From Anthopleura xanthogrammica (lineage: Eukaryota; Cnidaria; Anthozoa; Actiniaria; Actiniidae), in NCBI GenBank assembly GCA_964019055.1, contig OZ025217.1:6748557-6812556 (forward strand): a stretch of 64,000 nucleotides of DNA. The letters are read 5' to 3'. This document shows positions 22,801 to 59,500 of this stretch, in pieces. Both the position numbers and the translations under genes were made by a program. The number at the start of each line of letters is the position of its first letter. Position 1 is the stretch's first letter. A model generated the notes under the pieces. That model was not told where the DNA came from, ran no database searches, and worked only from the letters and a program-made list of their open reading frames with translations.

Positions 22801-25307
22801 TCTTGCGATTCATTAAAGCTGAACGGGAAGCAAACTGGGAACTTCACCTACAGTCTACAGCTGAGATGTTACCACACTTTTTCTCGATGGACCGAACCAA
22901 CTATTCAAGATGGTTTCCAGTATATCTGGCAGATATGCTTCAACTGGGAAAGACTGCTCCAGAGGTTCATAGAGAGTTCCTCGAGGGTAATCACGCAGTC
23001 AGCAGATCGCAGCAACCATTTAGTCAGATTTGGACGGATATGGCTTTGGAGCAGAGCGTAAACCGTGATTCAAAGACTAAAGGGGGGATCGTCGGGATAT
23101 CGCAGAAGGAGGGTGCCCTAGAAAAATGGTTTTTGACTGCCCATGAACGAGCAGCCGTAACAACTACAACCAAGGAGATGTGTGGAGTTCGAACTGATGG
23201 AACGATGTCGGTACATAAAGAAAGAGGTTCACTTCGGATGAAAAGAGATGAAGATGATGTGAAGAAGCTGGTATCAACGCTAGAGTCTGTCATGGTTAAC
23301 CCATTCGAAGGACATGACACCACACTTCCATTATCGAACTTGGCAACTGGTGTCGTAATGCCAACAGATATGGCTTCCAGACTCCTCAGTGCAGAGAAGA
23401 TTGGAGCGACAGAGATGAATTCCTTCGTTAGCAAGAGGCTCAACACAAATACTGTGGGATTTTGGGATACGCTGCCCAAAATAAAGATCCAGACTTTTGC
23501 AAGTTTGACTAAGAAGGTGCAAGCAAGGGCGTCAGACGAGAAGATAATAACGATAAATGCAGATCGAAGCCTGTTTGCTCGTCTTTTGGTCGCCTCTAAC
23601 ACAAGGAACATTGATTTACGTGAAGTACTAAAGTATGAGCTTTCTTCGGTTCCTTGTGCATTAGCTCACCCAGACGGTACACTGAGGAAGAGCAACAAAA
23701 GTGTCCTACTATCTGTGCTTGAAGGGTTCGTTGATGTCTTGCCGAGACTGCCACACGATGACGAAGAGCCAATAACAGCCAAAATCATTGATGGGATGGG
23801 TTTGGTACAAATGACAAAGACAGCTGGAGCACGAACGTTTGGAGAGATGGCCGATCGCTACTTCAAGAAAATCACGGGAAATCTTGGAATTGATAACTGC
23901 AGTCGCGTTGATGTTGTTTTTGACAGATACGACAAGACAGACTCCATAAAAGAAAGTGAACGCATAAGAAGAGGTTCTGCATCTGGATATGAAATCAAAA
24001 TCACTGGTCCAAGTACACCTGTTCCTAAGAACTGGAACGCCTACATTGCAAACCCAGTCAACAAGATGAACCTTCAACATTTTCTTAGTGAAACATGGAC
24101 GAAAATGGGGAAGAAATCGCTGATGTTTGGTCATCAACTAGTCTTCGCTGGATGTTTTGCGAACCCACAAGATGTCCTGATTGTCGAAAGTGGCACAGCA
24201 AGATCTCTTCATCAGCTGGTATCTGACCAAGAGGAGGCTGATACTAGGATGATGTTGCATGCGGAAGACTGCTCCCTCCAACACAGAAGAATAGTGGTGC
24301 ATTCCCCTGATACAGACGTATTAGTTCTCGCAACTTATGTGTTTTCTTCACTATCTTGCGACGAAATGTGGATGAGAACAGGTGTTAAAGACAAGCTACG
24401 ATTCATTCCTATCCATACGCTGAAACAGAAACTTGGTTCTCTTCTATGCAGCCTACTGCCTACATTCCATGCGCTAACAGGGTGTGATACTACAAGTGGA
24501 CCCTACTTCATCGGCAAGAAAAAAGCTTGGAAAGTACTGACAGATCACCAGGACAAGTTTGCAGCATTAACAAACTTTGGAGAAGGTACACCATTGTCAC
24601 CAGATCTATCAGCTGCTGCAGAGCAATACCTTTGCTCCATCTATTCCACTGCACCGCGGGCTGGAATAACTGCTAATGATGTTAGGTGAGTTACTTGTCT
24701 TTTAATTATTGACTGAAAAATACATATACTAAACTGCTTACTTTTTAAATGAATGTTCGGTAGATATTGGATGTTCTGCCAGAAGAAACAACGTAACGAA
24801 GGACTTCCACCGACTTCCAACAGCATACAGCATCACATTCAGCGAGCAAACTACCAAACAATGGTATGGAAGCGATGTCTTCAATCAATGCAAGAGCTTC
24901 CCTCGCCCATTGAGAACGGATGGAAAATATCCGACGGCATGATCCAACCAGTCTTGATGTCCAAAGATCCTGCACCAGAGGGACTCGTGGAGCTAACTGT
25001 CTGCAGATGCGATAAGTCGTCATGCAAGTCCAATCGTCTCTGCGTTTGTTACAATAACGAGATGGCATGCACTGAAGCATGTGGATGTATGGGCGATGAG
25101 AGCTGCCAGAATCCACACACCTCACAAGTCAGTAATGATGACAATGAAAGTGATGAAGACAATAGTGATGACGATAGTTGTGACGACGGCGACAGTGACG
25201 ATGGCAACAGTGATGACGATAAGGGTAATGACGACAGTGATGACGACGGGAGTGATGGCTACGACAGCCAGGACAGTAGTGAAGAAGAGTTGTCCAGCGA
25301 GATCTGA
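19839..25307 (+). CDS. Academ-like transposase, intact, three exons
   Basis: Exon 1 (19839-19848) supplies ATGCCAAAAG. Introns 19849-20508 and 24686-24763 have GTAAG/GTGAG donors and AG acceptors. The exons total 4,731 nt, exactly 1,577 codons with the stop. I prefer this start to an ATG overlapping the exon 2 acceptor. Visible parts: an N-terminal CxxC (CMFCQK, about residue 47); DDE-like candidates D412 (AADNND), D593 (TFDLAIY) and E646 or E676; EEADTR at 1245-1250; SPDTDV at 1269-1274; and ALTGCDTTS around D1330. The last three resemble the acidic motifs of PIN/XPG-type nucleases. A CXC-like cysteine cluster lies at about 1475-1512 and a Ser/Asp tail ends the protein. It should excise and insert its own element. 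No stop or frameshift was found. Confidence 0.75.
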
Positions 25308-25559
25308 TTCCTTCCAGCTGATATTAGGTAGCTTTAGATTTGACTACGAGTACGAGATTGACTAAAACATTATTCCTTTTAAACTATGCTACTACAGAAT
25401 GATAGTTGTCCTTACATTGGTTTAACTGTTGTTTTAGAAATGTGTTGTACCAAGATGAGGGCGACAGCAAGCATATAGTGAAATATATTTCAAGACAAAA
25501 TCTCGTCATCGTACTCAAATTCGTACTCGTAGTCCAATCTAAATGTCCTCCAATTTTGA

Positions 25560-25591
25560 AGAATTTTGAATTTTGAATTTTGAATTTTGAA
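25560..25591. repeat. GAATTTT short tandem repeat
   Basis: Four to five tandem GAATTTT units lie in the 3' region of the Academ-like element, after the gene. Confidence 0.8.
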
Positions 25592-26370
25592 CACTTTGAA
25601 GACGTTGCTAAAAATCAGTCGTTACCATGGTTACCAAGACTACTTAACAGTAACATCATTTCCTCAAGTTTCAACAATCGAACTTTCATTATTTAAAACA
25701 ATATGGTTTTACAAAGTTCCCATTAAATGTGGAGTCGGAGAAACTGACTTAAACACCAAATATATAAGATTTGGGCAAGTAATTAAGGTAATGTTTAGTA
25801 ATTTAGTATTCATTCAATAAGTAATTTAGGTTTGTTGTACTTGCAATCAATTGCTAAAGTAAACTTTTTTCTGCATAATTTCATATGTAAGTCTTTTTCT
25901 TGCATGTTTTCTTAGCATGAATATTTATACTTTGCTTTAGAGAGTTTGAAACTCATTTTTGTCTCCCCAAAAACTCGAAATGTACGATTCTTTCGTTAAA
26001 ACCTCTAAAAATCCTTTTACCTAGCAACCGTTGCCATGGTTACATTAATTATTCATCAATTTCATCTGATCATTTAACACTCGTCAAACTACACAAGCTC
26101 TTAAATTTTCAAATTATAAACTTAAGTATTTCAAAAGATATTAATTTTTCTAATCCCTTAGTCCTCGTTATATTGTCGGATTTGAGCATTCCAAGTGGAC
26201 CCCACCCCCCCAAAAAATCGCGACCTAGCATCTTTGGTACCCCACAATTTGTTAGTAAAATAGGGCTGGCAGCTTTCTAGGGTCAACTGTCCATCATAAT
26301 CCGTTGTCAAACCTTTTGTGTGATGGGGGTGCTACGTTGCCACTATTTTCGGGGATTTTCGCCTCGACTA

Positions 26371-26520
26371 TGTGCTTGATTTGATATTGGCATCGCAGAA
26401 GTATTTTACACGCCTACTAATTCTCAGAAATTTGAAGAAACGTCTATAACATAATTAAATCACCGACGTAAGAAATATATTCTTCACCAAATGGGCCAGG
26501 TATGTATTCAATTTAGCAAA
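26371..26520 (+). repeat. Interspersed repeat copy 1, right half
   Basis: The sequence resumes the repeat interrupted at 19241 (GCAGAAGTATTTTACAC and onward). It matches the copies near 43845 and 47505, ending near CCAGGTATGT. Confidence 0.65.
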
Positions 26521-26851
26521 TTATTTTTCTCATCCAATATATTACTATTAAAAATGAGCTTTGAGTATCCTGATAGAATGTGGTCAAGGTTTTCTTCCTG
26601 TTTTAGCAAGGATGGGTATTTTTATTAAAACAACGAACATGCACATACTAATATATAAAGTTAGGGATATTATTATTCACAAACCCTTGACACCCTGCCG
26701 TCACATACGTTGTTTATTTATAGTCATGTTAGCCATGGCTTGGCGACGGTAAAGAATTTTAACGCTCAGCGCACATAGCCCAAATATATAAATTCCGACA
26801 CTTACTTTATTGGATGCGTTTTATTGTATAATAATAATATAGATTAGAAGG

Positions 26852-27271
26852 AATCACTAAACCCGTGAAACAAAAATTACTTGTTTACAGTCAAACTAAG
26901 AAAACCGTGAACACCTAAAATATGTCTGGAATGTTTATTTAGACCGTTGCTTTTAAAAAAGATGTTTCCCACCACCATGAAAAGAGTTTGTTTTGAATCC
27001 TTCTGTCGTGTATCCGTCTGTCTTGAATAGAAATCTCTAATTTCACGAGAATAAAACTAAAATACGAAGTTTGAAACTTTTAAACGGGAAAAAACTTTGC
27101 GTGACCGCGCTGTGATCAAACACATAAACATTCCAAGCATAAATAAGCATATTTTAGGTGTTCACGGTTTTCTTAGTTTGACTGTAAAATGTGTAAAAGT
27201 CAAATAGACACAAAAGAAAACAAGCTACTAAAGTGAATTAGTCTAATATCTATTTCACGGGTTTAGTGATT
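26852..27271. mobile_element. MITE, 420 bp
   Basis: The ends are inverted copies (AATCACTAAACCCGTGAAA and TTTCACGGGTTTAGTGATT). A second inverted pair inside (AAACTAAGAAAACCGTGAAC and its complement near 27160) extends the foldback. No coding frame is present and the target duplication is unclear. Confidence 0.7.
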
Positions 27272-28508
27272 TCACTTGTTACTCTATTTACTAACCACTT
27301 GAATTCATCGCCTTATTCGCTTACTGATTTTAATCTGATTCTTATTGAACAAGTCCTCAAATGCCAACAATAGTGCGAATAGTCCCGAATACCGGCAAAT
27401 ACTAAATACCAATACATAGTTGAGTAACATTTCTTGTTATTGTAAGTACTCCAAGGAGTCGCAGAGGCCTCGGATTTGTATACCAATCTAGTAAAGTTCT
27501 TTTGAATAAAATGTAATTCATATTAATATGAATATGTATACCATAAAATGCAAAACAGGTTGATTCGTGAACATAATAAAATATATATGTTTGATATAAA
27601 CTGTCTGGCTGTCACATAAAACTATTTGTATGATAACAAGTAATTATTGCTACAGCCTTCATAATCTTTGATCAAAACATTGCTGGTCGTAGAATAGGTT
27701 TGAACCCGGTTATGTAGGCTAATGAAAACGTAGACGAAATATAATTTTGGTATTGCATGACGTGTTCATTGGCATGAAAAGTAGTACAAGTACAATCGGT
27801 AAGAATGCTGGTTTAGCCAGAGTAGCCAGCATTATGCCGAAAAAATGCTAGCCTATGTTCGACTTGACAGGCTTCACAGGTATGAGTATGTTGAATACAT
27901 ACATTATTTAGTGACATAATACGCTAACTGAAAAATGCTAAAAAGGCTTTATAAGCTTGCTTCAATAGGTATGCTTTTAGGGTGTTCTTGAAAAGTTTTT
28001 TGCTAGTCGTCAAGCTACAAACTTTATTGGCTATTTGTAGAGTTGCAACGAAGTTTTTTGGCTTCTTAAACCTCTTTGTATCTTGAGAAAAAAATTTCTG
28101 GGCGTTTGATTTCTGTGTAAGACTTTCGTGATATATGTATATTTTAGTTTGGATCTTCTAGAAATAAAAAATAAATAAAATACTGTAGATTTGTGGTTCA
28201 GATTTTCAAAATTGGTCTCAACTTAAAGCTGGTTTAGAGCAATATTGGAACAATACATGCTGTTTTTAAAAAAATCACCGTTAAATTTCCTTTATGGGGT
28301 ATTTGTAGAGTTGGAGTGAAATTTCCTGTTTTAAATCTTGATGTATGTGTACTGGCCGTATTAAATACAAGATAATTCGCTACAGAATCTAGTGACTGTG
28401 TGGTCTTTCTGTGAGTCTTCAATTAGTGGTTTGTAATTTTTTTCTTTTCTTTTTTTTTTTTTACATGTTTGTTTGTACGTTTGTTATCGTTTTGATATTA
28501 TTTTCCAG
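27272..28508. other. AT-rich spacer upstream of the mini-exon gene
   Basis: No coding exon with convincing splice signals was found. The first exon(s) and any signal peptide of the mini-exon gene should lie here or further upstream, but I could not locate them. Confidence 0.4.
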
Positions 28509-31500
28509 CTCAATTGTTGTAAAGAAAGAAGCGATAGTGAAAACAAATACACGGTAAGAAGAAGAATCTGTTACGTTCCTTCTGTAGAAAGTCAATAGTT
28601 TCAAAACCTGTTTACAAAATTTTTATCTAGAGAAAAACAAGAAATGATCATTTATGGCAGGACCGATACCATGAACAGGTTAGTACTGTCCAGTAATAAT
28701 TTAAAGGTAGCAAGGTAGCTTTCTCCCTTTTAAATTAACTGGTCCGGCCGGCAAGTCCCGACTTATGGAAAGCGCCCTACGTTTGCACGAGAGAAGTGTA
28801 ACGAGAAATAAGAGCCGTAATCCAATCGGTATTCAAAGTACAATTCCTTATATATTTCTTTAGAGTTCATCATATGGTAGTAAAAAGGTTGGACAACGAC
28901 TTGACAGGATTGGTGCCAAGGTGTGTTTATTTCTATGCTATATGCTATTGTTAATTTATTTCTTTAGATCACGTCAACGGGTAGTGTAAAAACTGGATAT
29001 CACCAACCTGACAGGATTGGCGCCCAGGTATGTTGTTTATATTTTTACTATAGAATACTTGCGATTTGGGACTTGCCAGAAAATTGCGGGGGGAAGGGGG
29101 TGAAAAAGGGGGAGGGTCATAACTTTTTGAGCTCCTGGAAAGGGGGGTCCAATTAAATTTGTGCTCATGCAGATGCAGCGACAGCGACATCTCATTTTAA
29201 GAAGTAATGTATCAATCAAAACGTCTCAGAAGAATTTGTTGTAAATGCCCAGTTCCACTACCATCACTATGTATAATTCTGAGCATCATCGTAACAGTGT
29301 TATTGACATCATCATCACCATAGCGCCATTCTTATTCATTGTAAAGGCCAGATATTACTTGATATCAAAGAAAGACACTGTATAATGTCTATATATATTA
29401 GGGGGAGGATCAATATATTATAGGTGAAGCCCCAAAGGATAGAGAGCTTCATTACCATAGCCAGGGATCAAAACATTTTCAACGCTCAATCGAAAATCTC
29501 CATACTCCCTTCCCCCCAACCCCCGCTAATTTCTAATGATAAAATTATTCTTTCAAATCTTTTAAATCTTTGCAATTTTTTTTCAATTTTCGTTATTATT
29601 TCCTTAGAGCTCATCATCTGGTAGTGTAAAAGCTGGATATTACCAACCTTACAGTATTGGCACCCAGGTGTGTTTTTTCGTTTTTGTTTACAATAGAATC
29701 ATTGCCATTATTAAAAAAAAAAAATCCATTTTATTTTTTTACTTTCAGAATTCATTATCTGGTAGTGTAAAAGTTGCACATCACCAACCTCACAGTATTG
29801 GCGCACAGGTGTGCTTTTTACTTGTTTACTATTAATTCAATGCGATTATTGAAATATTTCTTTATAAATTAATGTATTTATTCCTTTAGAGTTCATTATC
29901 TGGTAGTGTAAAAGCTAGACATCAGCAACCTAACAGGATTAGCGCCCAGGTGTGCTTTTTACTTGTTTACTATTAATTCAATGCGATTATTGAAATATTT
30001 CTTTATAAATTAATGTATTTATTCCTTTAGAGTTCATTATCTGGTAGTGTAAAAGCTGAACAACACACAGTTGACTGTATTGGCGCCCAGGTGTGTTGTT
30101 TACTTGTTTACTATTAATTCATTGCGATTATTGAAATTTTTTTTTTTCTAATTAATCTAATTATTCCTTTAGAGTTTATCATCTGGTAGTGTAAAAGCTG
30201 GACATCAGCAACCTAACAGGATTGGCGCCCAGGTCTGTTGTTTACTTGTTTACTATGGAATCATTGCCATCGTTAAAAAAAGTATTTTTTCTCAATTTAT
30301 TATTTCTTTCTTTTAGAGTTCATCATCTGGTAGTGTAAAAGCTGGACATCAGCAACCTCACAGGATTACCGCCCAGGTGTGTTGTTTACTTGTTTACTAT
30401 AGAATCATTGCCATTATTAAAATATTTTTTTTCTCAATTTATTTTTTATTTCTTTAAGAGTTTATCATCTGGTAGTGTAAAAGCTGGACATCAGCAACCT
30501 TACAGGATTAGCGCCCAGGTGTGTTGTTTACTTGTTTACTATAAATTCATTGCGATTATTGAAAAAAAAAAATTTAAATTAATGTATTTATTCCTTTAGA
30601 GTTCATTTTCTGGTAGTGTAAAAGCTGAACAATACACAGCTGACTGGATTGGCGCCCAGGTGTGTTGTTTACTTGTTTACTTGTTTACTATAGAATCATT
30701 GCCATTATTTAAAAAAAAAATTTCTCAATTTATTTTTTATTTCTTTTAGAGTTTATCATCTGGTAGTGTAAAAGCTGAACAATACACAGCTGACTGGATT
30801 GGCGCCCAGGTGTGTTGTTTACTTGTTTACTATAGAATCATTGCCATTATTTTAAAAAAAAATGTCTCAATTTATTTTTTATTTCTTTTAGAGTTTATCA
30901 TCTGGTAGTGTAAAAGCTGAACAATACACAGCTGACTGGATTGGCGCCCAGGTGTGTTGTTTACTTGTTTACTATAGAATCATTGCCATTATTTTTTTTT
31001 TTTAATTTTCTCAATTTATTATTTCTTTCTTTTAGAGTTCATCATCTGGTAGTGTAAAAGCTGGACATCAGCAACCTAACAGGATTGGCGCCCAGGTGTG
31101 TTGTTTATTTGTTTACTATAGAATCATTGCTATTATTTTTAATTTTTTTTAATTTTCTCAATTTATTATTTCTTTCTTTTAGAGTTTATCATCTGGCAGT
31201 GTAAAAGCTGGACATCAGCAACCTTACAGGATTACCGCCCAGGTGTGTTGTTTACTTGTTTACTATGGAATCATTGCTATTATTACTATTTTTTTCATAT
31301 TTTGTATTTATTTCATTAGAGCTTATCATCTGGCAGTGTAAAAGCTGGATATCAGCAACCTAACAGGATTACCGCCCAGGTGTGTTGTTTACTTGTTTAC
31401 TATGGAATCATTGCTATTATTACTATTTTTTTCATATTTTGTATTTATTTCATTAGAGCTTATCATCTGGCAGTGTAAAAGCTGGATATCAGCAACCTAA

Positions 31501-34500
31501 CAGGATTACCGCCCAGGTGTGTTGTTTACTTGTTTACTATGGAATCATTGCTATTATTACTATTTTTTTCATATTTTGTATTTATTTCATTAGAGCTTAT
31601 CATCTGGCAGTGTAAAAGCTGGTCATCAGCAACCTCACAGGATTACCGCCCAGGTGTGTTGTTTACTTGTTTACTATGGAATCATTGCTATTATTACTAT
31701 TTTGTTCATATTTTGTATTTATTTCATTAGAGCTTATCATCTGGTAGTGTAAAAGCTGGATATTACCAATCTGAAAGGATTGGCGCTCAGGTTTTTTTTG
31801 GAATTCTTTCCCATGAAATCATTATGATCATTTTAATATTTATTTTTTAGAGCTCATCATCTGGTAGTGTAAAAATCATGGAACAATGTCAAAAATTCGT
31901 CTAACGTAAAAAATTGCGCACTATTGCTACGGTGTAGATCAAACGATAGCTAGATCGAGTGGCCGACCAATAATGCCAATATTATGAAATGTATATGTGA
32001 TCGTACCATACTGAATGGACTCAGAAAAAATTCTGAGCCCCAGATGGGAATGCCAGTATTGCTACTTCTTTTACAAATTTTTGACAAATGATGGATAACT
32101 TTATGTTTAATTCAGATTTTAATAGCTCGTGAAAAAGATTTAAAACTATATTTGTCCTTACTATCTTCCTAAAAAGGTGTTGAGATTCCGATTCAATATA
32201 CAATTATATAGTCTGTCAACCCAGTTGAATATATATGCTTTTCCCCAAGGTGTTTTGCGACCAAAAGTTCAAAGACCTTGTATTCATGTGTTACCAGAAC
32301 TCTTTTTAAAACTAAAAATATATTTACTTCAGGCACGACTCCCTTCCTCACATGTACAGTCTCGAAGACCAAGCCGCAAAGCCCGTAGGCAGGTAAAATA
32401 TATAATGAACAATTAATTAATTAATTTGACCTCTAAAAATACCCTAAAAATTCGAAAAAATTATCTTTTTGAACCTCGTCAGATATTGACTTGCGTTTAT
32501 TATTTTAGTTCTGTGATTGTAATTATAAAATATTACCATCTTCATGATGATCGTGATATTTGACTTCTCTTTCTAGTTAGTGTCAGTGTTATTGATATTA
32601 TTATTATTATTATTATTATTACTGATTATTGTTATCTATTTATTTATTTATTTATTTATTTATATATTATCAAGATAACGTTGTATCACTACACCACAAA
32701 ACGAAATGCCATGAAAATCAGAAGCGAAAAATTAGTCCGAGGATCCGATCCTTCGACAACTGCCTTTCAGTATCGTCGCTATGGTGACGGTAAGTTATCC
32801 AACATTACTTTTTTTTTCTACATAATTTTTACATTTTACATTACTATTTAATTTTTTAACATACTTCCTACATTTTAAATCATTTTATATATTTAAGTAT
32901 ATTCTTATTTACAAATCAAAATTTTTTGACATCATCCATCATTACTATAATTTAAAGTGCCTATGACACATCTGACAATATTCTCAGTATAGATTCACAG
33001 GGAGCCAACAGCCACTGTTAGAATCAGTGATCGCACGAGCTTGGCGACGTTTCCTGATTGGTTGCAGTTCAAGTCTGAATAAATTATCAGCTGCTAACGT
33101 TGCTAGCGTAGAATATAATGACAAGGGATGAAACTTTAATCGGACCCCTCGAATAAAATTGCCTTAAAAAATTCGTGAAATGTTTTTTAATCTTTAAAAC
33201 TCAAAATCCCGATGCTTGGAAAGGTTGTCTAACGTTCTGTGTGGACAGAAAAAATCAGCATGGACTTATGTCTTGAAAAAATGGCAACAAATTAAAAGCT
33301 TGTTTTCGTTTTATCTGCGCCTCGAGTAAGGGGGGACGGAAATGAAATGGAGTCTTATAAATTTGACAGGTGGTCATCAAAATCGATGTATTTACTTCCG
33401 TTGTGCATCTATAATAACTTTCTCTGCATCTGTTATAAGCTTACTTTCGGGAATTTTCTTCAAAATACCGCCAAACTACTAAACATTACTTTCATTGAAT
33501 AAGAAGTGGATTGTGATGTGATGGAATTGTAAGTAGTTGAGATATTTTCTTATCAAAATACGGGTTCTTACTTATTACTCGGCAACCATTTGGAATCAGA
33601 AATTCATGCTTGAACCAAAATATATGCTAGTAAAGAATACATATTATTTTATTCCCTTGTTCAGATCAACAGCGTGCTATCGACCAAGCGCTAGGTAAGG
33701 GCCATAATTTGAGTTGGAAAGAGCTTTCTTCTCTCTTGCATTTCCAAGAGTGTATCTTAGAACGTACTCTCTGGCAGTCCGGCAAAAGCTTCCTAATAAA
33801 CTCTCCCTAAGTCTTCAACAGTAAAGCGATTCTCCCCATCGAAAAGAATTTTTGCTCGTTCTTATTTTGTACGGCTTTCACACACATAAATGCCCCAGGC
33901 ACTTGGAAGTAATTCTTGATAAGCCTAAAGAATTAAATAATTAAAAAAATACTGTATTGATGTTTTACTCTAAGACTTAGTACCGCAGCTTAAACGGAGC
34001 ACGCTCACTTCCGCTTCCGTCCCCCCTTACTCGAGGCGCAGATATGACCAGAAATCTTGAAGATGACTAAGAGTCAGTACTGTTCGACTCTAATCTGACG
34101 GACACAATTTGTGCTATATGGGGGTTTTCTTTCTATGACGTATTTGTAGATATGATTAAAACTGATCTGTGAACATGATTGATAACTTTGTTGTTACTGT
34201 GCTTTATGCTATAGATATTTACAATTCCTTTTTCATCTTCCAGGTGTCTATTTCACCTCTTTGTCACCAGAACTACCACCAGACAAGTTAGCCCTGAATA
34301 ACTTTACGAACCGTGGTAATTGTATATATGGAACAGGTCTCTATAGGAAAATTCATTATGTTGTAAGAATTAATTTTGATAACCATGAAGTGAAAAAGAT
34401 AAATGTTCCCCACAGAGACGTTTACTTGTACAAAGGTAGTATTGATTTGACACAATACGAAGGGCGATACAAAATTTATGAGAACCAAAAATGTCCAATG

Positions 34501-34509
34501 AGGTACTAG
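28509..34509 (+). CDS. Mini-exon repeat protein with C-terminal HYD1-like ADP-ribosyltransferase domain (5' incomplete)
   Basis: All visible exons join in phase 0: 28509-28553 (45 nt), 28631-28678 (48 nt), then 57- and 60-nt mini-exons from 28864 to 31790, a basic 60-nt exon at 32333-32392 (Arg/Ser-rich), 32675-32789, and 34244-34509 with a TAG stop. Each mini-exon encodes a 20-residue repeat of the form SxxSGSVKAG..QP.RIGAQ. The last two exons encode LYHYTTKRNAMKI and, across the splice, RYGDGVYFTSLSP. These resemble the start of HYD1-type ADP-ribosyltransferase toxin domains (Tox-ART-HYD1, from memory), which modify proteins using NAD. The enzyme activity is inferred, not shown. The start exon was not found. 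The final intron carries a MITE (33314-34042). Confidence 0.65.
28864..31870 (+). repeat. Tandem mini-exon array 1 (18 intact, 1 truncated)
   Basis: Mini-exon starts are 28864 (57 nt), 28968, 29608, 29749, 29890, 30031, 30173, 30317, 30459, 30600, 30750, 30892, 31036, 31183, 31320, 31457, 31594 and 31731 (60 nt each). Each is preceded by a pyrimidine-rich tract ending AG and followed by a GT donor, mostly CAG/GTGTGTT. Introns are about 77-90 bp, apart from a 580-bp intron after 29027. The last four units repeat at exactly 137 bp. A degenerate copy starts at 31851 and runs into a stop without a donor. All intact copies are open in the same phase. Variants fall into classes such as GHQQP, EQYTADW and GYYQS. 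Confidence 0.9.
29490..29545 (+). repeat. Short dispersed repeat also seen at 37808
   Basis: CATTTTCAACGCTCAAT followed by AAATCTCCA and a C-rich run occurs here in an intron and again at about 37808-37860. The element type is unknown. Confidence 0.4.
32594..32663. repeat. (TTA)n and (TTTA)n microsatellites
   Basis: Adjoining trinucleotide and tetranucleotide runs lie in the intron immediately upstream of the exon at 32675. Confidence 0.9.
33314..34042. mobile_element. TA-flanked MITE in the last intron of the ART gene
   Basis: The ends are inverted copies (TCTGCGCCTCGAGTAAGG and CCTTACTCGAGGCGCAGA, extended by GGGGACGGAA), with TA on both sides. It is 729 bp and has no convincing coding frame. 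Confidence 0.7.
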
Positions 34510-35550
34510 AAATGCCAGAAATATTAGAAGTAATAGACGACTATCACCAATTGCAACATGCACACACTATAGTATTCGTTAATACAGAAAAACATAGCTA
34601 GTACAACAACAACAATTATTTTATTTTGTACCCAGAATTGTAACTATACAATAAATATTTACAAAATATGATAATTAATTTGAAATGATAAAGGTACTGG
34701 CCCTAAAAAAATATCTTAAAAGCTAAAGTTCAGTTAGTACCAAATAACAGGTATTGATTTAGAAAGAGTAGATTGGGCTTATACAATTTTCTAGGAAAAA
34801 TTCAGCACACAACAAATTAGCACACATGCACACACACACACACGAATGCTATTATTTTTGAAACATAAATAACTAGTATTAAAGCTAGTTAGAGCTACGT
34901 AAATTTATATAAAATTATGATGTATGTAATTAGTTATTAACCTGAACAACGTGTAATAAAAAATATATATAGTGGTTTTTATATAATAGAAGAGTTATTC
35001 AGTAGTCACTATATAGCTTGTGCAGGGGCTCGAGAAAATATTCAAGTCCACCTGACAGTCCACCTGTTTATATATGATTCTCATTTTTGGTGTAACAAAA
35101 ACTAAGTGAATGGCTATATGAAAAACGAGATGAATGGATAAGAAAGGGAAAGGAATATACAGTTTTATATTTAAACTGAAAACTGCATTCTGCTTGTTAT
35201 TCTCTACACCATTGCTGGACTTATTTTTATTGATGCGCGTGCGGCAAACACTACAATCTTGGACAAAATGGTTGAGAATCTCTAAGGTTTGGGAGGATAT
35301 CTTGTGTAATACACAGTTAAATTCCCTTACGATGACCTCTTCCCCCAAAACAAGAACGGTTTTTTCGAAAAAAATGTTCTGGGGGGGGGGGGATCTAATT
35401 CAGATACCATCTTATAAGGAAAACTATTTTCTTGATATGATCAAAAATTCCCAATTATTTTTGTCCAAGATCGTACCTAGCGCGCGTTTTATTGCCCTAA
35501 AAATTTTGCATGTGACATAACTTAGTGAGAACACACTATATAATACAGAC

Positions 35551-41690: not shown

Positions 41691-42893
41691 ATGAGAAGGA
41701 AACCAATATTTAGAACAAGAAAAGTTAACTCTTCAATGAGATATGTTTACAATCCCAGTACAAATAAATATAGGAATAAATATCTCAAATACGTAAGGTG
41801 GTTTTCGTGTAATTTCTCATATAGCGAGTATAAGGGTTTAGATCATAAAAGCAACTGTGCAAATTACAAGCTTTGTAATGATATAGAGAAAAACCCAGGT
41901 CCTGTCACCCACCATGTTGATGCTAGTAAAACAGTAAGTGCAGCATATAGTCAAGGGGATGTTGTTATATTTGGACAAAATGCAGGGCAACAATGTGTGG
42001 CAATGAGTTTATGTGCTTTAATATATCACCAAATGAAAGGGATAACCAACCCTGATGACTTGAAAGAAATCATGCATATTGGGAATCAATTGTATAGCAG
42101 TTTGTCACAGCTTGCACGACAATCGTTTTTACTGCTAACAGAATTACCAGCAATGCTTACAGTGTCAGAGGAAAATTACCAGCTAGATTACAGTGAAAGT
42201 TATACTGGTGATGTTCATGGTGAGTCTACCATTGAAGGATATCAATACCGCATGGGCATGAAAAGAGCTTTTGAATCATTGCTAACAGAACAATACAGCT
42301 CATTTATTCTAACAGTTGGTTGTATTGCTGTCGGTATTATTTACTGTACTGATAATGGCCATTTTAAAGTGTTTGACTCTCATGCTAGAGATGTTTATGG
42401 TAAGAGTCATCCTCAAGGGACATGTGTATTATTAGATATATCATCTATAGAGAATTTAGTGCAATACTTTCAAGGTTTATATGGAGCAACTGATCTTTAT
42501 GAATTAAAAGGTCTAAAAATTACAAAATATGACATTGCAACAAGCAACAGTGTAAAAGACATAACTACACCAGATCAACACAACTGTTCCAAAGAGCAAT
42601 GTTTTGCAACAGCTCTTTATTCAATATGTTACTCAATCATTTCACCTTGTAGTTACTGGAACTCAAATACTTTAGATGCAATCATTAAAAATGGATCTCA
42701 GCTTCACAATACAATAGATAATGAAACTTGTTTAACACCTGTTGAACTTGACAGTGTTAACATTTTTGGCACTAACATAAATGTAAACATTAATGAGATA
42801 AGTCACAGAGAACTACATAATTCAACTGAAAGCAGGATATCTTTACAGACCTTGATTTTAAGGAACCACAGTGGAAAAACAGGATTTTTATGA
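41691..42893 (+). CDS. 2A peptide plus tandem UL36/C76-like cysteine-protease modules
   Basis: The 400-codon ORF starts with a basic region, then carries [10 protein letters not shown], ending at residue 71. This fits the 2A ribosome-skipping consensus DxExNPGP, so translation would separate the products between G70 and P71. Downstream lies a module with [13 protein letters not shown] (candidate Cys102) and KVFDSHARD (candidate Asp229/His231), the pattern of UL36/C76-like papain-fold proteases. A second partial module ([14 protein letters not shown]) begins near residue 304 and is cut off by the stop. The basic frame continues upstream to about 41520 but has a TAG near 41567. Such proteases are known in cellular and transposon genes. 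The role here is inferred: deubiquitinase-like, or an element-encoded protein. Confidence 0.55.
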
Positions 42894-43579: not shown

Positions 43580-44380
43580 TTATTATTGATATTATCTTTT
43601 TAATTCACATTTCTAAGAAATGTAGGTCACGCAAGCGTATGTTCCAGGAAATCTAACAACGTTACACTTATTTATTTTTCCTTCTAGATTCGTATGTTGT
43701 CTTTCCTAATGAAAATTCGAAATTTTTCAACTACAAGGAGTTTCGGATCGGAGTTTTGGGACAAAATAGTAGAAATCGCTTTTTAAATTCTTGATAGCAA
43801 CCAAACAGTATCCGTAGGAGATTGTGCCTGACGTTGGCAGCTCAGAAGTATTTTACACAAATACTACTTCGTGTAGATTTGAAGAAACTTCGATAACATA
43901 ATCGAATCACCGACATAATATTGATATCATTTTCCAAATGGAACAGGTATGTCATAAACTTAGCAAATTTCCCTTTAATTCTCATGCAATGTACTATTTA
44001 AAATAAGTTTTATTCATACTGTTAAGAAATTGCTGCTACGGACGGATAACGAGAGAAACACATAGATCCAGCAAACTGCTTCAAAAATTATCTTATTTAA
44101 CCTTTGAATGTTGCATTTATGAGTGCCAAAGCCGGTAAATCGGAAAACTCTATACGTAACAAACTGATATTCACTGGTTATTATAAAATATTTGCTCATT
44201 AATATATGATTATTCTCAATAGCATTATGCACTCAATGTAAATATCTGGAGTTTATTCAGTCATATTTGATGTTTATCTTGTTTGACCCTGGAGAAGGTC
44301 ACGACAATTTTTAACGTTCGGGGTCTTCTAAAATTTCGCCATTTGAATAGCCCAAAAATTTTATTTCCCATTTAGCAATT
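43580..44380 (+). repeat. Interspersed repeat copy 2
   Basis: This 801-bp segment is nearly identical to 47241-47948 apart from a deletion of about 93 bp in the latter. It is also similar to the sequence flanking the Academ-like element. It contains no supported ORF and shows the pre-insertion state of the Academ target. Confidence 0.8.
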
Positions 44381-44790: not shown

Positions 44791-46194
44791 GTAATAGATT
44801 TGCACTGCATGTATTATTTGTAATATATAGATTTAGGCACTGCCTAAAAGCGGAGCTCCCATAAATAGTATATTTAGTGCTAAAAACGTGACAATTGTGT
44901 GACGCGGCATAACGCTGGTTATAGCGTTACCACTTCGTTTGATTTTACCAGAATCAAGGAGGAAAAACTAAAAGAAAAACCATTATTTTAAGCCTTCAAA
45001 AGCATAAGAAAACTTTTCAATTCGAAGAAAAATAATTATTGATTGTAGAACATATGAATACATGTATAGAACAAAGGATTTTATTCAGCAAATCCTAGTA
45101 ATCAAAGTTGTAAGTTTTTTAGGTGGAAAGTGAACTACACTGAAAATTGTCGAAAAAGATTACTGATAAGCTTAAGCTTACATTCACTTGAACTTCACAT
45201 GTAAAAAGAGACATATTCATTAATGCAAGACAATAATTTTTTTTGTTAGTAAGTTGGTCTTTGAAAAGTTTTTTTTTCAGATTTATTCTTAACTTTATTA
45301 TCGAGCGAAATATCTTACAAAAACATAAGCTTATCCATAAAAAAAAACAAGCTCATCATTTTTGCGATTCTGTTATAGTAATAGCTGGAAAAGCCCGATA
45401 AATAGCAAATGTTTGGTGTGATATGTATTCCTTTTTCATATTTCATTCAACATTAAAATAAATTATCTATAAAAATGTCAAAATATTCATATGATTATGA
45501 AACTGGAATCTTGTTTTGACTTCGCGTGAGGCTCGCTGGCCGTCAAATATATTTTTTCAAAGAACTAAGTCTTTTTTACTAAGTCTTAGCCTTTTTTCTT
45601 GAAATGGGATCAAAAACAAAAGATCAAAGCTTCAAATATCGCTTTTTTGGTTCACAAGTAATGAAGAAAAAGATGATAAAAATCTAGAATGCAGTAAAAA
45701 CGACAAACTATCCAAGTTTTTCTGACAATGTTTGCCGAACTAACGTCCTTGGCTTGTCTGAGAGTTTCTCCAGCTAGTTTACACATTTCTTGTCGATTTT
45801 TTACGAAATATTAGTTAAAATTAATGAATTTACCTTCTATGAAGTGTTTTCTACGGAACTGAAATATCATTCTTGCAGTATAATCAGGTTTTTCTGGTCT
45901 ACAGGCCACTTTTTCTCTCACTGAAGTTTCAGTCACGAAACTTCATCTAATCGTAAGATTAAGAATCTTCCCTCGCTTTCCCTCGCTAAATCTTCTTTAG
46001 CAAGTCGCTAAAGTCGAAAAATTGTTTTTGTTCACTTTAAGACAGACATGACTTCGACTAAACGTATTTTTCGCATTGCAAAAATAAGAAAAAATACTTC
46101 TTGATCCATCTTTGACTACATTATTGCAATTTTTCTGTGCATTTGTGAGTAAGCAAAGCGCGCGGGAACCCTGTGCAAAGTGGTACACGGACGG

Positions 46195-47240: not shown

Positions 47241-47948
47241 TTATTATTGATATTATCTTTTTAATTCACATTTCTAAGAAATGTAGGTCACGCAAGCGTA
47301 TGTTCCAGGAAATCTAACAACGTTACACTTATTTGTTTTTCCTTCTAGATTCGTATGTTGTCTTTCCTAATGAAAATTCGAAATTTTTCAACTACAAGGA
47401 GTTTCGGATCGGAGTTTTGGGACAAAATAGTAGAAATCGCTTTTTAAATTCTTGATAGCAACCAAACAGTATCCGTAGGAGATTTTGCCTGACGTTGGCA
47501 GCTCAGAAGTATTTTACACAAATACTACTTCGTGTAGATTTGAAGAAACTTCGATAACATAATCGAATCACCGACATAATATTGATATCATTTTCCAAAT
47601 GGAACAGGTATGTCATAAACTTAGCAAATTTCCATTTATTTCTCATGCAATGTATTATTTAAAATAAGTTTTATTCGTACTGTTAAGAAATTGCTGCTAC
47701 GGACGGATAACGAGAGAAACACATAGATCCAGCAAACTGCTTCAAAAATTATCTTATTTAACCTTTGAATGTTGCATTTATGAGTGCCAAAGCCGGTAAA
47801 TCGGAAAACTCTATACGTAACAAACTGATATTCACTGTTTATTATAAAATATTTGCCTGGAGAAGGTCACGACAATTTTTAACGTTCGGGGTCTTCTAAA
47901 ATTTCGCCATTTGAATAGCCCAAAAATTTTATTTCCCATTTAGCAATT
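47241..47948 (+). repeat. Interspersed repeat copy 3
   Basis: Nearly identical to copy 2 at 43580-44380 with one deletion near 47855. It lies inside the large foldback transposon. Confidence 0.8.
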
Positions 47949-52163: not shown

Positions 52164-53181
52164 TACGGCGTGTACCACTATGCACAGGGTTCCAGCGCGC
52201 TTTGCTTACTCACAAATGCACAGAAAAAAATCGCAACGCAATAATGTAGTCAAAGATAGATCAAGAAGTATTTTTTCTTATTTTTGCAATACGAAAAATA
52301 CTTCTTATCGAAGTCATGTCTGTCTTAAAGTGAACAAAAACAATTTTTCGACTTTAGCGACTTGCTAAAGAAGATTTAGCGAGAGAAGATTCTTAATCTT
52401 ACGATGAAGTTTCGTGACTGAAACCTCAGAGAGAGAAAAAGTGGTCGGTAGACCAGAAAAACCTGATTACACTGCAAGAATAATATTTCAGTCCGTAGAA
52501 AACACTTCATAGAAGGTAAATTGATTAATGTTAACTAATAATATTTCGTAAAAAATCGACAAAAAATCTGTAAACTAGCTGCAGAAACTCTCGACAAGCC
52601 AAGGACGTTGCTTCGGCAAACATTGTCAGAAAAAACTTGGATAGTTTTTTGTCGTTTTTACTGCATTTTACATTTTTATCATCTTTTTCTTCATTACTTG
52701 TGAACCAGTAAAGCAATATTTTAAGCTTTGAATTTTTGTTTTTGATCCAATTTCAAGTAAAAAGGCTAAGACTTAGTAAAAAGACTTAGTTCTTTGAAAA
52801 AATATATTTGACGGCCAGCGAACCTAACGCGAGGAATTCTGATGTCAAAACAAGATTCCATATTTCATGATGCTATGTATATGTTAAAGAAAATTTATCT
52901 TAATGCTGTCATGAATGAAATATGAAAAAGGAATACATATTACACCAAATATTCGCTATTTATCGGGCTTTCCCAGCTATTATTATTACACAATCGCAAA
53001 AATGATGAGTTTTTTTTTTTTTTTTTTATGGATAAGCTTATGTTTTTGTAAGATATTTCGTTCGAGATTAAAGTTAAGATTAAATCTGAAAGAAACTTTT
53101 CAAAAACCAATTTCTAACAAAGAAAATTATTATCTTGCATTAATGGATATGTCTCTTGTTACATGTGAAGTTCAAGTGAAT

Positions 53182-53182
<1 letters not shown>

Positions 53183-53218
<36 letters not shown>
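53183..53218. repeat. (AAT)n microsatellite
   Basis: About 12 AAT units in the right arm of the large foldback. Confidence 0.9.
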
Positions 53219-53552: not shown

Positions 53553-56500
53553 AGCTTTTTATCTGGTCGTTCAAGACCTGTAAATAAGCGACTTGACAGT
53601 ACTGTCGCCCAGGTGTGTCATTTACTTTTTTTTAGTATAAAATCATTATCATATTATTTTTTATCTAATTTTCATGTATTTATTTAGGGCTATTTATCTG
53701 GTCGTTCAACACCGGTAAGTCATAGACTTGACAGTGCTGTTGCCCAGGTGTGTCATTTACTTTTTTTTAGTATAAAATCATTATCATATTATTTTTTATC
53801 TAATTTTCATGTATTTATTTAGGGCTATTTATCTGGTCGTTCAACACCGGTAAGTCATAGACTTGACAGTACTGTCGCCCAGGTGTGTCATTTACTTTTT
53901 TTTTAGTATAAAATCATTATCATATTATTTTTTATCTAATTTTCATGTATTTATTTAGGGCTATTTATCTGGTCGTTCAACACCGGTAAGTCATAGACTT
54001 GACAGTGCTGTTGCCCAGATGTGTCATTTACTGTTTTAGTATGAAGTCATTATTATAGAGTGGTTTTCATTAACCCATTTATTATATCCATTTTGAAATC
54101 ACTAGCAAATCCTGTAATCTGATTGGCTCTCAGTAGATTGATTCAAGCACGAATCGCACTATTTTGAGTCCGAATCGCACTATTTTGAGTCGGAATCGCA
54201 TCTTTTTGTCAGCATCTCAATGCAGCACTAGAAAAGGTAACCAATCAGATTACAGGATTGTATGTAATCAGCCAATCAGATTACAGCAAATAAGGAACAT
54301 AAAATGTAGCTTTTTTCAAGTTTGACTGCAATTTTTTGTTACAAAAAGAAACAAAATGGATGATTTTAACAGCTACTTACACAAATTTAGTGTCTATCTA
54401 GTATGATTTCCAAATGGATATAATAAAGTGATAATTGAACTTCGTGTCGTGCAATTTTGGTCTGATATCAAACTTGCGATTACAAATCACACTCCCGCTA
54501 CGCGGTCGTGTGATTTTGTTATCGCGCGTTTGATATCAGACCAAATTGCACTCTACTTAGTTCAATTACCATTATGAAACACACTTTAGCGTAATACGCT
54601 TTATTACACTTTATGTTTTGTGAAAAGTCCATACCAGAAGTACAACTAATTCACTGAAATGTTTGCATTTAAATATATTTTTATTAACGTAACTATGCAT
54701 TGTTTTTATTTCATCAATACAAAATTCAGCTGTGACTTTTTACATGTAATTTTCACCGGAAAACTCACAACAAACTGAATAAACTGAATACCTGTGAAAA
54801 ATATGATGATAATAATTAATGACCGAAAGATTCTATGAAATGTAGTTTCTGAGCGATAGTTGATAACATTTATATAATTCTACATGCTTTCAATTCTATT
54901 TGTACCCAGTTGAAATGCATATGTACTTTAATACTAAATTTGAATTTGTAGCTTTGTGTTTTATAATTATTTGTTCAATAGCACTATTACACTTTATTAC
55001 TCTTTACCTATTACACCTTGTTTCACGGGTTAATGAAAACCACTCTATTACCTGTTATCTAATTCCTACCTATTTATTTAGAGCTCATTATCTGGTCGTT
55101 CAAGATCGGTTAAACAGCAACTTGACAGTACTGTCGCCAAGGTAGTATAATTCACTGTTTTACTATAAAATCATTATTACACTATCTTTTATCTAATTTT
55201 GATCTATTTATTTAGGGCTATTTATCTGGTCGTTCAAGATCGGTAAGTCATAGACTTGACAGTACTGTTGCCCAGATGTGTCATTAACTGTTTTACTATA
55301 AAATCATTATTATATTACCTTTTATCTGATTTTCATCTATTTATTTATTTAGAGCTCATTATCTGGTCGTTCAACATCGGTTAATCAGCGACAAAACAGT
55401 ACTGGCGACCAGGTGTGTAATTTGCTGTTTTACTATAACATCATTATTACACTATCTTTTATCTAATTCTCTTTCACCATACTACACATTATGCCCTTAT
55501 TATGCGTACTTTCTTGCGCATGCGCAAAGCCCACATTCCAAAGAAACCACTGTTATGCAAATAGCAAACAGGTATATAATGTGAATGCCGGACAGACCAG
55601 GCCTCTCCTTTCTTTGTGCCAGCGCACAAGGTAAGCTCACGTTCCTTGCTCGTTTTACTTGATACAAATTTTGTAAACGAGTTGTCTATTAAACGGGACT
55701 TTGTTCCTATGTCTTTATATTTCTCAGCACATTTGCCTGATGAAAAATGTCGAAGACTACCGAAGAGCCTCTCATTGCAGATAATACGGTTAATCCTGAT
55801 GATTTGTCGCTTCTACAAGATGAACATCCATCCTTGTCGACCGAGCTGTTCACAAAAGAGTCGCTGTCCTTCCTACAACAGAGATTAGGAATAGACTCCA
55901 TCGTGTCGGCGATAAATGATTTGTCTAACCTCGTAAAGAGATCTCAAGACGTTAAGGATGATGAACCATCACCTAAACGTGCTCGACTGAGCTATGATCC
56001 GAGTGCCTCACTCGGCGATTTGGCAAGCGATATATTATCTGACGACGCCGAATCTGAACTCCCGCCTTCAGTGTTCGATGATCAAGAGAATAAAGGTCCA
56101 AAAATTAAAAAAGAAGCTTTGGCGAAACGAATAAACGAATCGTTTACTACTAAACCTATTGAAGACAAGATGAAGCCTCTGCTTCAGAAATATCACACGC
56201 CCGAGAATTGTGAACTCTTGTGCGTGCCACGGGTGAATTCACCTTTGTGGAATGAGCTTCCACACCAAGCAAAATCTGTGGACCTTGGCGTCCAAGAAAT
56301 ACAAAAGATGATTGTTAAAACTGGTCAAGTTTTAGTGTCTCTGGCTGAATCAGCCATAAAGGCCAAAAAGGAGAAAGAGCTCCTTGACCCACAATAGTTC
56401 CTTGGAGCCCTTTCTGATGCTCTGGCATTCATTGGGAATGCCGGTTTTCAGACATCACTTAAGCGGCGAGATTTGCTAAAGGCTTCTCTAAGCAAAGACT

Positions 56501-59500
56501 ACCAGTCTTTATGCTCCGCTTCTGCTCCAGTTACAACTCATCTCTTCGGAGATGATTTGTCTAAGAAAGTAGATGATATCGCCAAGGCGAACAGAATTGC
56601 CGTCAGGATTACCAAGAACCCTGATACTCGAGCAAGTGGTGGAACTAGGAACCGCAACCGCCAAGGACAAGGCTCTCAGGCTTTTTTGTCCTCAAAGCCG
56701 GGCTCAGCCCGGCGCAACAACAATTACAACAGATTCAATCAGAGCCGCTCGACGCCTCGTTACGAGAAAAAGCAGTCAACAGAGTCAGACACTGCTGCTC
56801 AGAAACACAAGTAAATGCTGTAAGTGTTTCTCCCTTTGCTGGTCATCGTCCACGAATGGTCTAAGATCACCACAGACCCTTGGATTTTACAATCTATCCA
56901 AGGCTATCGTCTTGAATTCGAGACAAAACCACGGCAATTTCGTCGTCCGGTCTCCCGACCTCTTTCTGACTCAGATCACGCTTTAATTGCCTCTGAGGTC
57001 GAAAAATTGCTGTCTAAACGAGTGATCGTTAAAACGAACCACCTTTCAGATGAGTTTATCTCAAATTTATTCTTGGTTCCCAAAAAGACAGGTGATCTCA
57101 GACCAGTCATCAATCTTAAGCCACTTAATAAGTTTGTTCGTACTATCCATTTTAAGATGGAAAGTATAGATTATGTCAAGCATTTGTTGCACCCAGGAGA
57201 ATTTATGGCAACTATTGACTTAAAAGATGCTTATTTTAGCATCCCTATTCATCCCAATGACCGGAAATATTTACGGTTTGCTTGGGAACACTCACTTTAC
57301 GAGTTTACATGTCTCCCGTTTGGGTATAAACTAGCCCCTCGTACATTTACCAAAATACTCAAACCCGTCTATGCAGCCTTGAGATTCCGAGGCATTAGGG
57401 TTGTATTTTATATTGACGACACTTTGGTGATTTTCTCGGGTTCGTCATCGATTCAGAATCCATGACTCTATCGCTCCCTGAGAGTAAGATTGACAAGATT
57501 GTCTCTCATTGTAAACGCCTTTTATTGAACCCCGCTCCTACCGTTCGCGAGGTTGCCCAAGTTTCGGGACTCTTAGTTTCCGAAACTCTTCTATCGCTCC
57601 ACCGAATTGTGCAAATCTGAGCTGATATCGCGTGGCGCTTCGTTTGAAGACCCATATCCACTGAGTGCCCAAGCACGCGCTGATCTCCAGTGGGTGATCC
57701 ATAACATTGTCGATCATAATAGTCTAGCCCTTATTTCCTCCTCACCCGATATCACTATAGCATGTGACGCTAGCAATTTGGGCTGGGGAGCGCGTTGTAC
57801 TACACGTAACACAGGTGCTTTGTGGTCTCTAACCGAATCCACTCATCACATTAATTATCTCGAAACACTAGCTGCGTTTTTCGCTCTGAAATGTTTTGTT
57901 AAAAAGAATTACGCAACGCTCATGTCCAGCTACAAATCGATAATACGACGGCTGTTTATTATATTAACAACATGCATGGGTGGAATTCATTCCCCCGCTC
58001 TTAACAAGCTATCAAGAGATATCTGGGAATGGTGTATAGCCCAAAATCTAATGCTCAGTGCCGTCCATGTTGCGGGTATTCATAATGAAACGGCCGACTT
58101 TAACTCTCGCCACTTTAATGACAGAACGGAATGGAGTCTCCATCCTACTGTCTTTAAGGTGGCTTCCTATAGTATTTTTCAGACATACCTTTCATTTTCA
58201 TTTGGCTTATTCATAGTCTTAACTTATACCTATATACTTGATTTTTGGACCAGTTATAGAGCTAAGATGAAATTTTAAAATGATGTTTATTTTATCTTGA
58301 TTGACGTTACCTTGGCAACGATAAACAAATATTGTTGAAATTGGTTTTTATCGAATAACTCTAAAACTCGATGAGACCTAGACAAGCGGCAAACGACATC
58401 ATCAACTTCAAGCTATTGCAAAACGATTCCAACTATCTTAAAGAAAATTAATCTGTTAGATTTCAAGTAATTCGCCGAAATATTCTAAAGCCGTGATTTT
58501 CGCACATTGAAAGTTACGGCGGCCCAAGAGATACTCAGAAAAACCGAATTACTATTAAAATACTCCAAAACAAACCCTTCCTAATACACTAAAAGTTAAT
58601 TCTCTTTCAAACCAGAGATTTTTTTCCTTGCGTAAATATTTTGATAAATTTTACCTGGCTAACATGTTCAAATTGCTGCCAGAATAACTTTCAAACGAAT
58701 GCATATTTTTGCTCGATATAATAGGAGTGTATTTATTTATTTATATTTGAATTAATTAACATCATTTTAAAATTTCATCTTAGCTCTATAACTGGTCCAA
58801 AAATCAAGTATATAGGTATAAGTTAAGACTATGAATAAGCCAAATGAAAATGAAAGGTATGGTCTGAAAAATACTATAGGAAGCCACCTTAAGTGGTTGT
58901 CACAGGCAACGTTCGATCCAGATATAGATCTTTTTGCCTCGTGCCTAAATGCCAAAGTGCTTCGTTTTGTGTCGTGGTCACCAGACCCCTCGGCTTTTGC
59001 GTCTGACGCATTTTCTCAAGTTTGGGGAGATTTTAATGCGTACGCCTTTCCTCCTTTCAGCCTTATTCCAATTGAAGAGAGACAAGGTCCAACGTGCGTT
59101 ACTCGTAACCCCCGTGTGGCCTTCCCAGTCATGGTATCCCACTCTTCTGGAAATGGCCACAGCTCGGCCATTTCTTCTGCCCAGGTGGCCAAATGTGCTG
59201 ATCCTGCGTCACAACGACCAACTTCATCCTCTCCGAGATCAGCTTCAACTGACTGGTTGGACTGTGTCAGGCAACAGCTCGTTGACCAAGGCATTTCAAA
59301 GGACTCTGCCGACATTATCTGCCAGTCCTGGTCCCAGGGTACCTGCAAGCAATACAGTTCAGCCTGGCACTCCTGGGTTAGCTGGTGCGGTGCTAGGTCA
59401 CTAGTCTTGATCTATTTCAAGCACCTGTAACAGCATTTCTAGATTTCCTCCATGATGTGTCCAAACAAGGCAAAGCTTACAGTACCGTGAATACGTATCG

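Follow-up and report, generated by a model that had tools for sequence, protein, structure and literature searches.

What does a run of near-identical mini-exons encode when it stands in front of a domain related to bacterial toxins? The question is raised by gene 1 of a 64,000-nucleotide stretch of Anthopleura xanthogrammica DNA (the window; C12:6748557-6812556; the eukaryote assembly has 125 contigs and 289.8 Mb). We give about an even chance to the reading that the mini-exons encode a repeat spacer, its length set by splicing, that links a membrane anchor to an intracellular ADP-ribosyltransferase (ART)-like domain, both of them predicted. Two related genes on the same contig, gene 2 (with an array) and gene 3 (array-free), serve for comparison. 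The mini-exons of gene 1 are as follows.

28864-28920, plus strand: mini-exon 1 (m1), 57 nt, phase 0
28968-29027, plus strand: mini-exon 2 (m2), 60 nt, phase 0
29608-31790, plus strand: mini-exons m3-m18, sixteen 60-nt phase-0 exons
29608, 29749, 29890, 30031, 30173, 30317, 30459, 30600, plus strand: starts of m3-m10
30750, 30892, 31036, 31183, 31320, 31457, 31594, 31731, plus strand: starts of m11-m18

All 18 mini-exons (28864-31790; 17 of 60 nt, m1 of 57 nt) are in phase 0 and stop-free, preceded by AG and followed directly by a GT donor. The initial annotation had described eighteen 60-nt mini-exons with their own splice sites, each free to be skipped without a frameshift; place, splice sites and frame neutrality (18/18) stand, the common length of 60 nt does not. 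By one set rule ([CT]AG, then 60 open nt with a final AG, then GT), 28860-31800 contains 16 matches, whereas 200 mononucleotide shuffles averaged 0.035 and never gave more than 1; the pattern is far above chance. Tandem Repeats Finder (TRF) returned a 137-bp unit in 15.7 copies at 29575-31792 (score 2294). The encoded 20-residue repeat has the consensus SxSSGSVKAGHQQPxRIxAQ; a second unit type, with a central EQ[HY]T[VA]D, accounts for four units. In a genome-wide pattern search (up to 3 mismatches), 15 of 15 matches to the gene-1 unit type fell in its own array (control 0). No RNA structure was found for one unit (z 1.41), and no Rfam match in 26000-35000.

The remaining exons of gene 1 are given below.

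26491-26499, plus strand: predicted first coding exon, ATGGGCCAG before GTATGT, MGQ, phase 0; from similarity to two other copies
28509-28553, plus strand: exon 2, 45 nt, phase 0, LNCCKERSDSENKYT; from splice sites and frame
28631-28678, plus strand: exon 3, 48 nt, phase 0, RKTRNDHLWQDRYHEQ; from splice sites and frame
32333-32392, plus strand: linker exon, 60 nt, phase 0, ARLPSSHVQSRRPSRKARRQ
32675-32789, plus strand: ART exon A, ITLYHYT...RRYGDG, phase 0 in, phase 1 out; bears the His
34244-34509, plus strand: ART exon B, GVYFTS...RDVYLY... to TAG; bears the Tyr and the Arg-Asp

The flanking exons of 45, 48 and 60 nt were annotated correctly as phase 0, and the chain does enter the ART-like domain in phase: exon A continues into exon B (...RRYGDGVYFTS...) in an unbroken frame to the TAG at 34509. 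Joined as they would be in a full transcript, the exons give a coding sequence of 1620 nt (539 codons and a stop), of which the mini-exons contribute 1077 nt, all in phase 0. The first exon, left unplaced by the initial annotation, probably lies in a conserved block near 26491: 26387-26553 shares 78% identity with 47495-47664, and its part 26387-26522 shares 79% with 43834-43969; ATGG(GC/AA)CAG followed by GTATGT is present in all three copies, which would make the block a start exon encoding MGQ in gene 1 and MEQ in gene 2. A 30-nt phase-1 exon at about 33665-33694, between the ART exons (by eye), was rejected; it would split GxGVYFT, which is continuous in relatives.

Gene 2, downstream of gene 1, has 31 units of a related repeat (SFLSGRSRPVNKRLDSTVAQ type), all open.

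43834-43969, plus strand: duplicate of the gene-2-type first exon, ATGGAACAG before GTATGT, MEQ
47495-47664, plus strand: region of the predicted gene 2 first exon, ATGGAACAG before GTATGT, MEQ
53553-55412, plus strand: gene 2 array, part 1, 7 units of 60 nt
60756-63881, plus strand: gene 2 array, part 2, 24 units of 60 nt
about 66960-67074 and 70648-70904 (window numbering; L005), beyond the window: gene 2 ART exons, open

The second first exon is carried by a 616-bp duplication (43580-44195 and 47241-47856, 98.9% identity). In the genome-wide pattern search 29 of 30 matches to the gene-2 unit type lay in its own array, the other on C15 with 3 mismatches (control 1). The two parts of the array are separated by a DIRS/Ngaro-like retroelement (55500-60700) within an intron, with RVT_1 and a phage-integrase-type recombinase above cut-offs and a weak RNase H-like match; a further stretch resembling a transposable element was seen by eye at about 67500-69400 (L005, window coordinates), in the intron between the gene 2 ART exons.

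Whether splicing selects among these exons is the first point to be weighed. Every exon that separates the start exon from ART exon A is in phase 0, so any subset of them could be retained; that cells make use of mini-exon skipping has, in our estimate, slightly under an even chance. Quite possible, if not what we would expect, is a fixed spacer, in which all 18 mini-exons are always included, the exon structure is a by-product of tandem duplication of an exon with its intron, and repeat number changes over evolution and not through splicing; the exon arrays of collagen, elastin and titin PEVK genes arose by such duplication. The donors of the mini-exons are uniform and strong, as a fixed spacer would have it: of the 9 positions of the U1 consensus they match 6-8 (7-8 in 17 of the 18 units), and the donors of the remaining gene-1 exons match 7-8. 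Mean exon identity is 0.84 within either array and 0.64 across arrays, a homogenisation that fits unequal exchange. Against constant inclusion stand the gene 2 donors: the end donor is GT in 25 of 31 units and AT in 6, an internal in-frame GTAAGT after codon 9 occurs in 11 of 31 (53688-63822) and would allow a 27-nt exon, and all six units that have lost the end donor carry it (P 6e-4, with units assumed independent, which they are not). The association hints at variable exon use and is no proof of it. Even with constant splicing, the two neighbouring arrays of 18 and 31 units show the birth and homogenisation of exon arrays.

Are the units coding at all? At intron rates 6.4 stop mutations would be expected over both arrays, and none was observed (P about 0.002). 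The count is tree-based and rough (neighbour-joining tree, Fitch states); this and the substitution counts below cover 15 of 16 gene-1 and 28 of 31 gene-2 units (43 of 47), with m1 and m2 outside the counts; each array's final unit was dropped, as were two gene-2 units that precede long introns. Unit length is constant at 60 nt and the homologous end is reached in 47 of 47 units (m3-m18 and gene 2); the introns have six lengths per array, with seven (gene 1) and six (gene 2) gap patterns. We claim from these observations that the reading frame of the mini-exons is under constraint. They make it improbable that the array is a non-coding intronic minisatellite whose open frames descend from one old exon, the gene making only a short ART protein beginning MGQITLYHYT...: the absence of stops, the fixed length beside varying introns and the AG/GT sites kept in 18 of 18 gene-1 units all speak against it, even though that skip-all product shares the architecture of the proteins P0018 (Montipora) and P0020 (Actinia tenebrosa), a decayed 19th unit was seen by eye at about 31852, and a full-length search gave no repeat-bearing relative among 7990 scored candidates. 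The twelve matches of that search, with DUF4097-type Pfam domains, were judged chance and set aside.

The domain behind the array matches the family that the initial annotation had proposed. The spliced gene-1 domain scored 30.9 bits against Tox-ART-HYD1 (PF15633; cut-off 25; profile positions 1-42 of 97), exon A alone 19.3, and exon B alone gave no match; Pfam reported the ART domain only. The ADP-ribosyltransferase fold expected of a Tox-ART-HYD1 member is supported by the model of a 58%-identical relative, P0003 (pLDDT 88.3), which aligned best with ART-superfamily folds. Sequence searches of PDB gave only weak matches, PARP10 at E 1.5-1.8. The signature residues are given as H, [RK], [FY] and [DE] in PMC3482391. 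The histidine was present in 42 of 42 and the tyrosine in 45 of 45 rows of alignment A2 (45 hand-chosen rows, mostly longer ones, from 5 proteins and the 120 listed of 165 matches). At least 11 ART loci, counted on exon B alone, form an intron-bearing animal gene family in this genome. Alignment A1 includes 8 of the 11; outside it are C12:4496839 (open), C12:4511380 (L016, in the 4.44-4.51 Mb cluster; start of exon B rearranged) and a C10 locus (not read). PADLOC gave no match for five proteins, and NCBIfam just weak matches, far under cut-offs, for the same five. As for the marks of a bacterial polymorphic toxin, neither a secretion or trafficking domain nor an adjacent immunity gene was found, immunity proteins being sought in nine neighbouring open reading frames only.

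Relatives suggest how the architecture arose. The profile search found 165 proteins; among the 120 listed are short ones from Montipora and Actinia tenebrosa, P0018 reading MGKITLYHYT... and P0020 MSKITLYHYT..., without an array. Because gene 1 exon 1 joined directly to ART exon A would read MGQITLYHYT..., the gene-1 array probably lies inside an ancestral first intron. A loose start-exon pattern gave six matches in L039 and L040, among them MGDK twice and MSK once upstream of L040 paralogues. Gene 3 (C12:6.868 Mb) has an exon (ITIIVVIIIVFALRW...ERNKIVKERK; L038 7291-7413) with a predicted transmembrane anchor, 33 residues of which align with the N-terminal region of A. tenebrosa P0023 (MDQIILAIIAVIIFIVAW...; E 6e-5); in the P0023 model a helix (2-22) and another after it are followed by stretches of low confidence and finally by the ART domain. 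Gene 3 also has candidate exons like the middle part of P0023 (VATERRPDTDLNQEWLNLLLLQ) and a basic linker (by eye); the gene-1 linker exon resembles the basic linker preceding the ART domain in gene 3 and P0023 (by eye), and exon 3, tentatively and by eye, RNLDLEWQKLQ of P0023 and also gene 3. Where gene 3 and P0023 have the transmembrane exon, gene 1 has LNCCKERSDSENKYT. No mini-exon array was found between the gene 3 anchor exon and ART exon A, nor at the remaining eight loci, where the upstream sequence was read in part (L039, L040, short flanks). In the tree genes 1 and 2 pair (98/95), as do gene 3 and P0023 (100/100), and all four group with two JGI proteins (90/80); the closest named relatives are from Actinostola and Actinia. 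A satellite of 79-bp units, about 84 copies, occupies L038 20-7088, upstream of gene 3.

How would the gene 1 product be held at a membrane? N-myristoylation follows the pattern M-G-{not EDRKHPFYW}-x-x-[STAGCN], with a Cys nearby for dual acylation. If exon 1 joins exon 2, the product begins MGQLNCC, an acylation-like N-terminus that matches the pattern and has two cysteines; Gly2 may be myristoylated and Cys6/Cys7 palmitoylated. In gene 3 and P0023 a transmembrane helix predicted at the N-terminus, with a basic stretch behind it, would serve as the anchor; under the positive-inside rule a basic stretch after the helix places the enzyme side in the cytosol, and the gene 3/P0023 enzyme would therefore be cytosolic. 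We consider a membrane-tethered cytosolic enzyme somewhat more probable than not. The initial annotation had left the localisation open and had called for a signal peptide check; none was found in frame in 25300-28860 (scan for ATG-first hydrophobic exons; hydrophobic internal exons were scanned over 25300-28900), and MGQ followed by LNCC is the most likely start. It is accordingly very improbable that the product is secreted or stands on the cell surface as a stalk whose extracellular head is an ADP-ribosyltransferase effector, for all that the domain family is named after bacterial toxins (PMC3482391) and a Clytia relative, P0089, begins with a signal-like segment (by eye): besides the lack of an in-frame signal peptide, the MGQ/MEQ first exon is conserved, and the sole hydrophobic ATG reading found (28465, MFVCTFVIVLILF...) is the T-rich tail of an intron in another frame, leaves in phase 2, is terminated inside the second mini-exon (by eye) and was rejected.

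Several observations weigh against a tethered enzyme with a coding spacer, the search without repeat-bearing relatives among them. At the DNA level, exon 2 of gene 1 is unique in the genome. Gene 2 begins MEQ, does not match the myristoylation pattern and is therefore not myristoylatable, and no anchor exon was found for it. Directly 5' of exon 2 is a hydrophobic phase-0 candidate exon (28427-28474, WFVIFFFSFFFFTCLF), which resembles the T-rich acceptor tract, would be separated from exon 2 by an intron of 34 nt and was set aside as a weaker candidate. Foldseek gave no match at E <= 0.001. Asp115, which we take to be the catalytic acid and candidate third catalytic residue (the [RK] was not placed), is present in 10 of 10 rows of A1 and in just 19 of 45 rows of A2, so that catalysis is unsure. 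Replacement and silent changes numbered 49/6 against 50.3/13.9 expected in gene 1 (p 0.051, leaning to excess replacement) and 48/18 against 64.9/13.4 expected in gene 2 (p 0.033, a replacement deficit); naive pairwise nonsynonymous/synonymous divergence (dN/dS) was 0.206/0.123 (17 units) and 0.184/0.216 (31 units). As the two arrays lean in opposite directions, we claim frame constraint and not diversifying selection; positive selection on the repeats was set aside as a reading, and the "recognition region" proposed initially is left without direct support, the tests being weak.

With these points counted in, the spacer reading would work as follows. The ancestral gene would have had a tiny start exon (M-x-K/Q) joined straight to the two-exon ART-HYD1 domain; one lineage would have gained an anchor exon and linker exons within that first intron, which is phase 0; tandem duplication of one linker exon together with its intron would then have built the arrays of genes 1 and 2, the order being ART-only, anchored ART, anchored ART with array. 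Products could range from MGQITLYHYT... with no units to 539 residues with every exon, and splicing would likely set the number of repeats kept. The anchor would keep the protein at the membrane, where the ART domain would act on targets close by, and the 20-residue units would be a flexible leash setting the reach of the enzyme. The leash would be basic on balance, because the unit charges sum to +19 in gene 1 (m2-m18) and +62 in gene 2. The sequence itself shows the exons and their phases, the open frames, the paralogues and the match to the domain; splicing choice, acylation, topology and catalysis are features that we infer. More speculative, and in our view rather unlikely, is a splice-programmable leash, in which each transcript would pick among as many as 18 frame-neutral mini-exons in gene 1, or 31 in gene 2, and so set the membrane distance of the predicted intracellular ART and the linker charge, with further states from acidic (EQYTADW) or basic (GHQQPNR) units and, in gene 2, from the choice between 60 and 27 nt. 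Selective use of the mini-exons would let one gene supply graded tethers for a signalling enzyme and provide a natural test of linker length against enzyme reach at a membrane.

Other features of the window are an open reading frame (41691-42890) that encodes a Herpes_teg_N domain (E 8e-10), shows by eye a 2A-like DIEKNPGP motif and may come from a mobile element; an inverted repeat of about 1 kb (45178-46189 and 52169-53185, 88% identity); and a 33-bp minisatellite (1302-1543, 7.4 copies), its period a multiple of three.

Among known systems, the cnidarian ART-HYD1 proteins P0018 (Montipora), P0020 and P0023 (A. tenebrosa) and P0076 (Exaiptasia) have the same domain, and P0023 shares the order anchor, linker, ART with our reading of gene 1; all four are without the 20-residue repeats. 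Repeats encoded by tandem in-frame small exons are also found in collagen, elastin and titin PEVK genes, whose products are structural and whose repeats are others. Typical exons of micro-exon genes (MEGs) are smaller than 60 nt. In schistosome MEGs the coding region consists largely of very small symmetric exons that yield many in-frame splice forms, and in VAL-6, a VAL gene of which one part has MEG-like structure, such exons are attached to a folded domain (PMC4350168); MEGs appear restricted to platyhelminths, according to the same paper, and their products have signal peptides. To call the present arrangement an undescribed gene design, as was done initially, was therefore an overstatement, although gene 1, which like MEGs has most of its coding region in small symmetric exons, differs from them in its cnidarian host, 60-nt tandem copies and ART-like folded part, and in that no in-frame signal peptide was found in 25300-28860. 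In PMC2447309 the fast skeletal troponin T gene TNNT3 has alternatively spliced exons 4-8 near its 5' end, mostly of one phase class, a similar 5' run of small exons; it does not encode an enzyme or have 18 near-identical tandem copies. Tandem exon duplications are described generally in PMC9013439. Bacterial Tox-ART-HYD1 modules, such as Tre(Tu) (7zhm/7zhl), have the same Pfam family and predicted fold, and are secretion-delivered toxins with immunity proteins, whereas here there are intron-bearing animal genes at at least 11 loci; PMC3482391 and PMC10469887 bear on this, the former listing bacterial phyla for HYD1 and cnidaria for HYD2, not HYD1. By title and start of abstract, no cnidarian HYD1-type ART and no ART with a mini-exon array was found among the literature matches listed, which leaves unpublished status unproven. 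If the mini-exons are indeed chosen selectively, a design like that of MEGs would extend to another animal lineage and to a family of enzymes met chiefly in conflicts between bacteria. Symmetric mini-exons in tandem are already described; their combination with an ART-like domain appears to be new.

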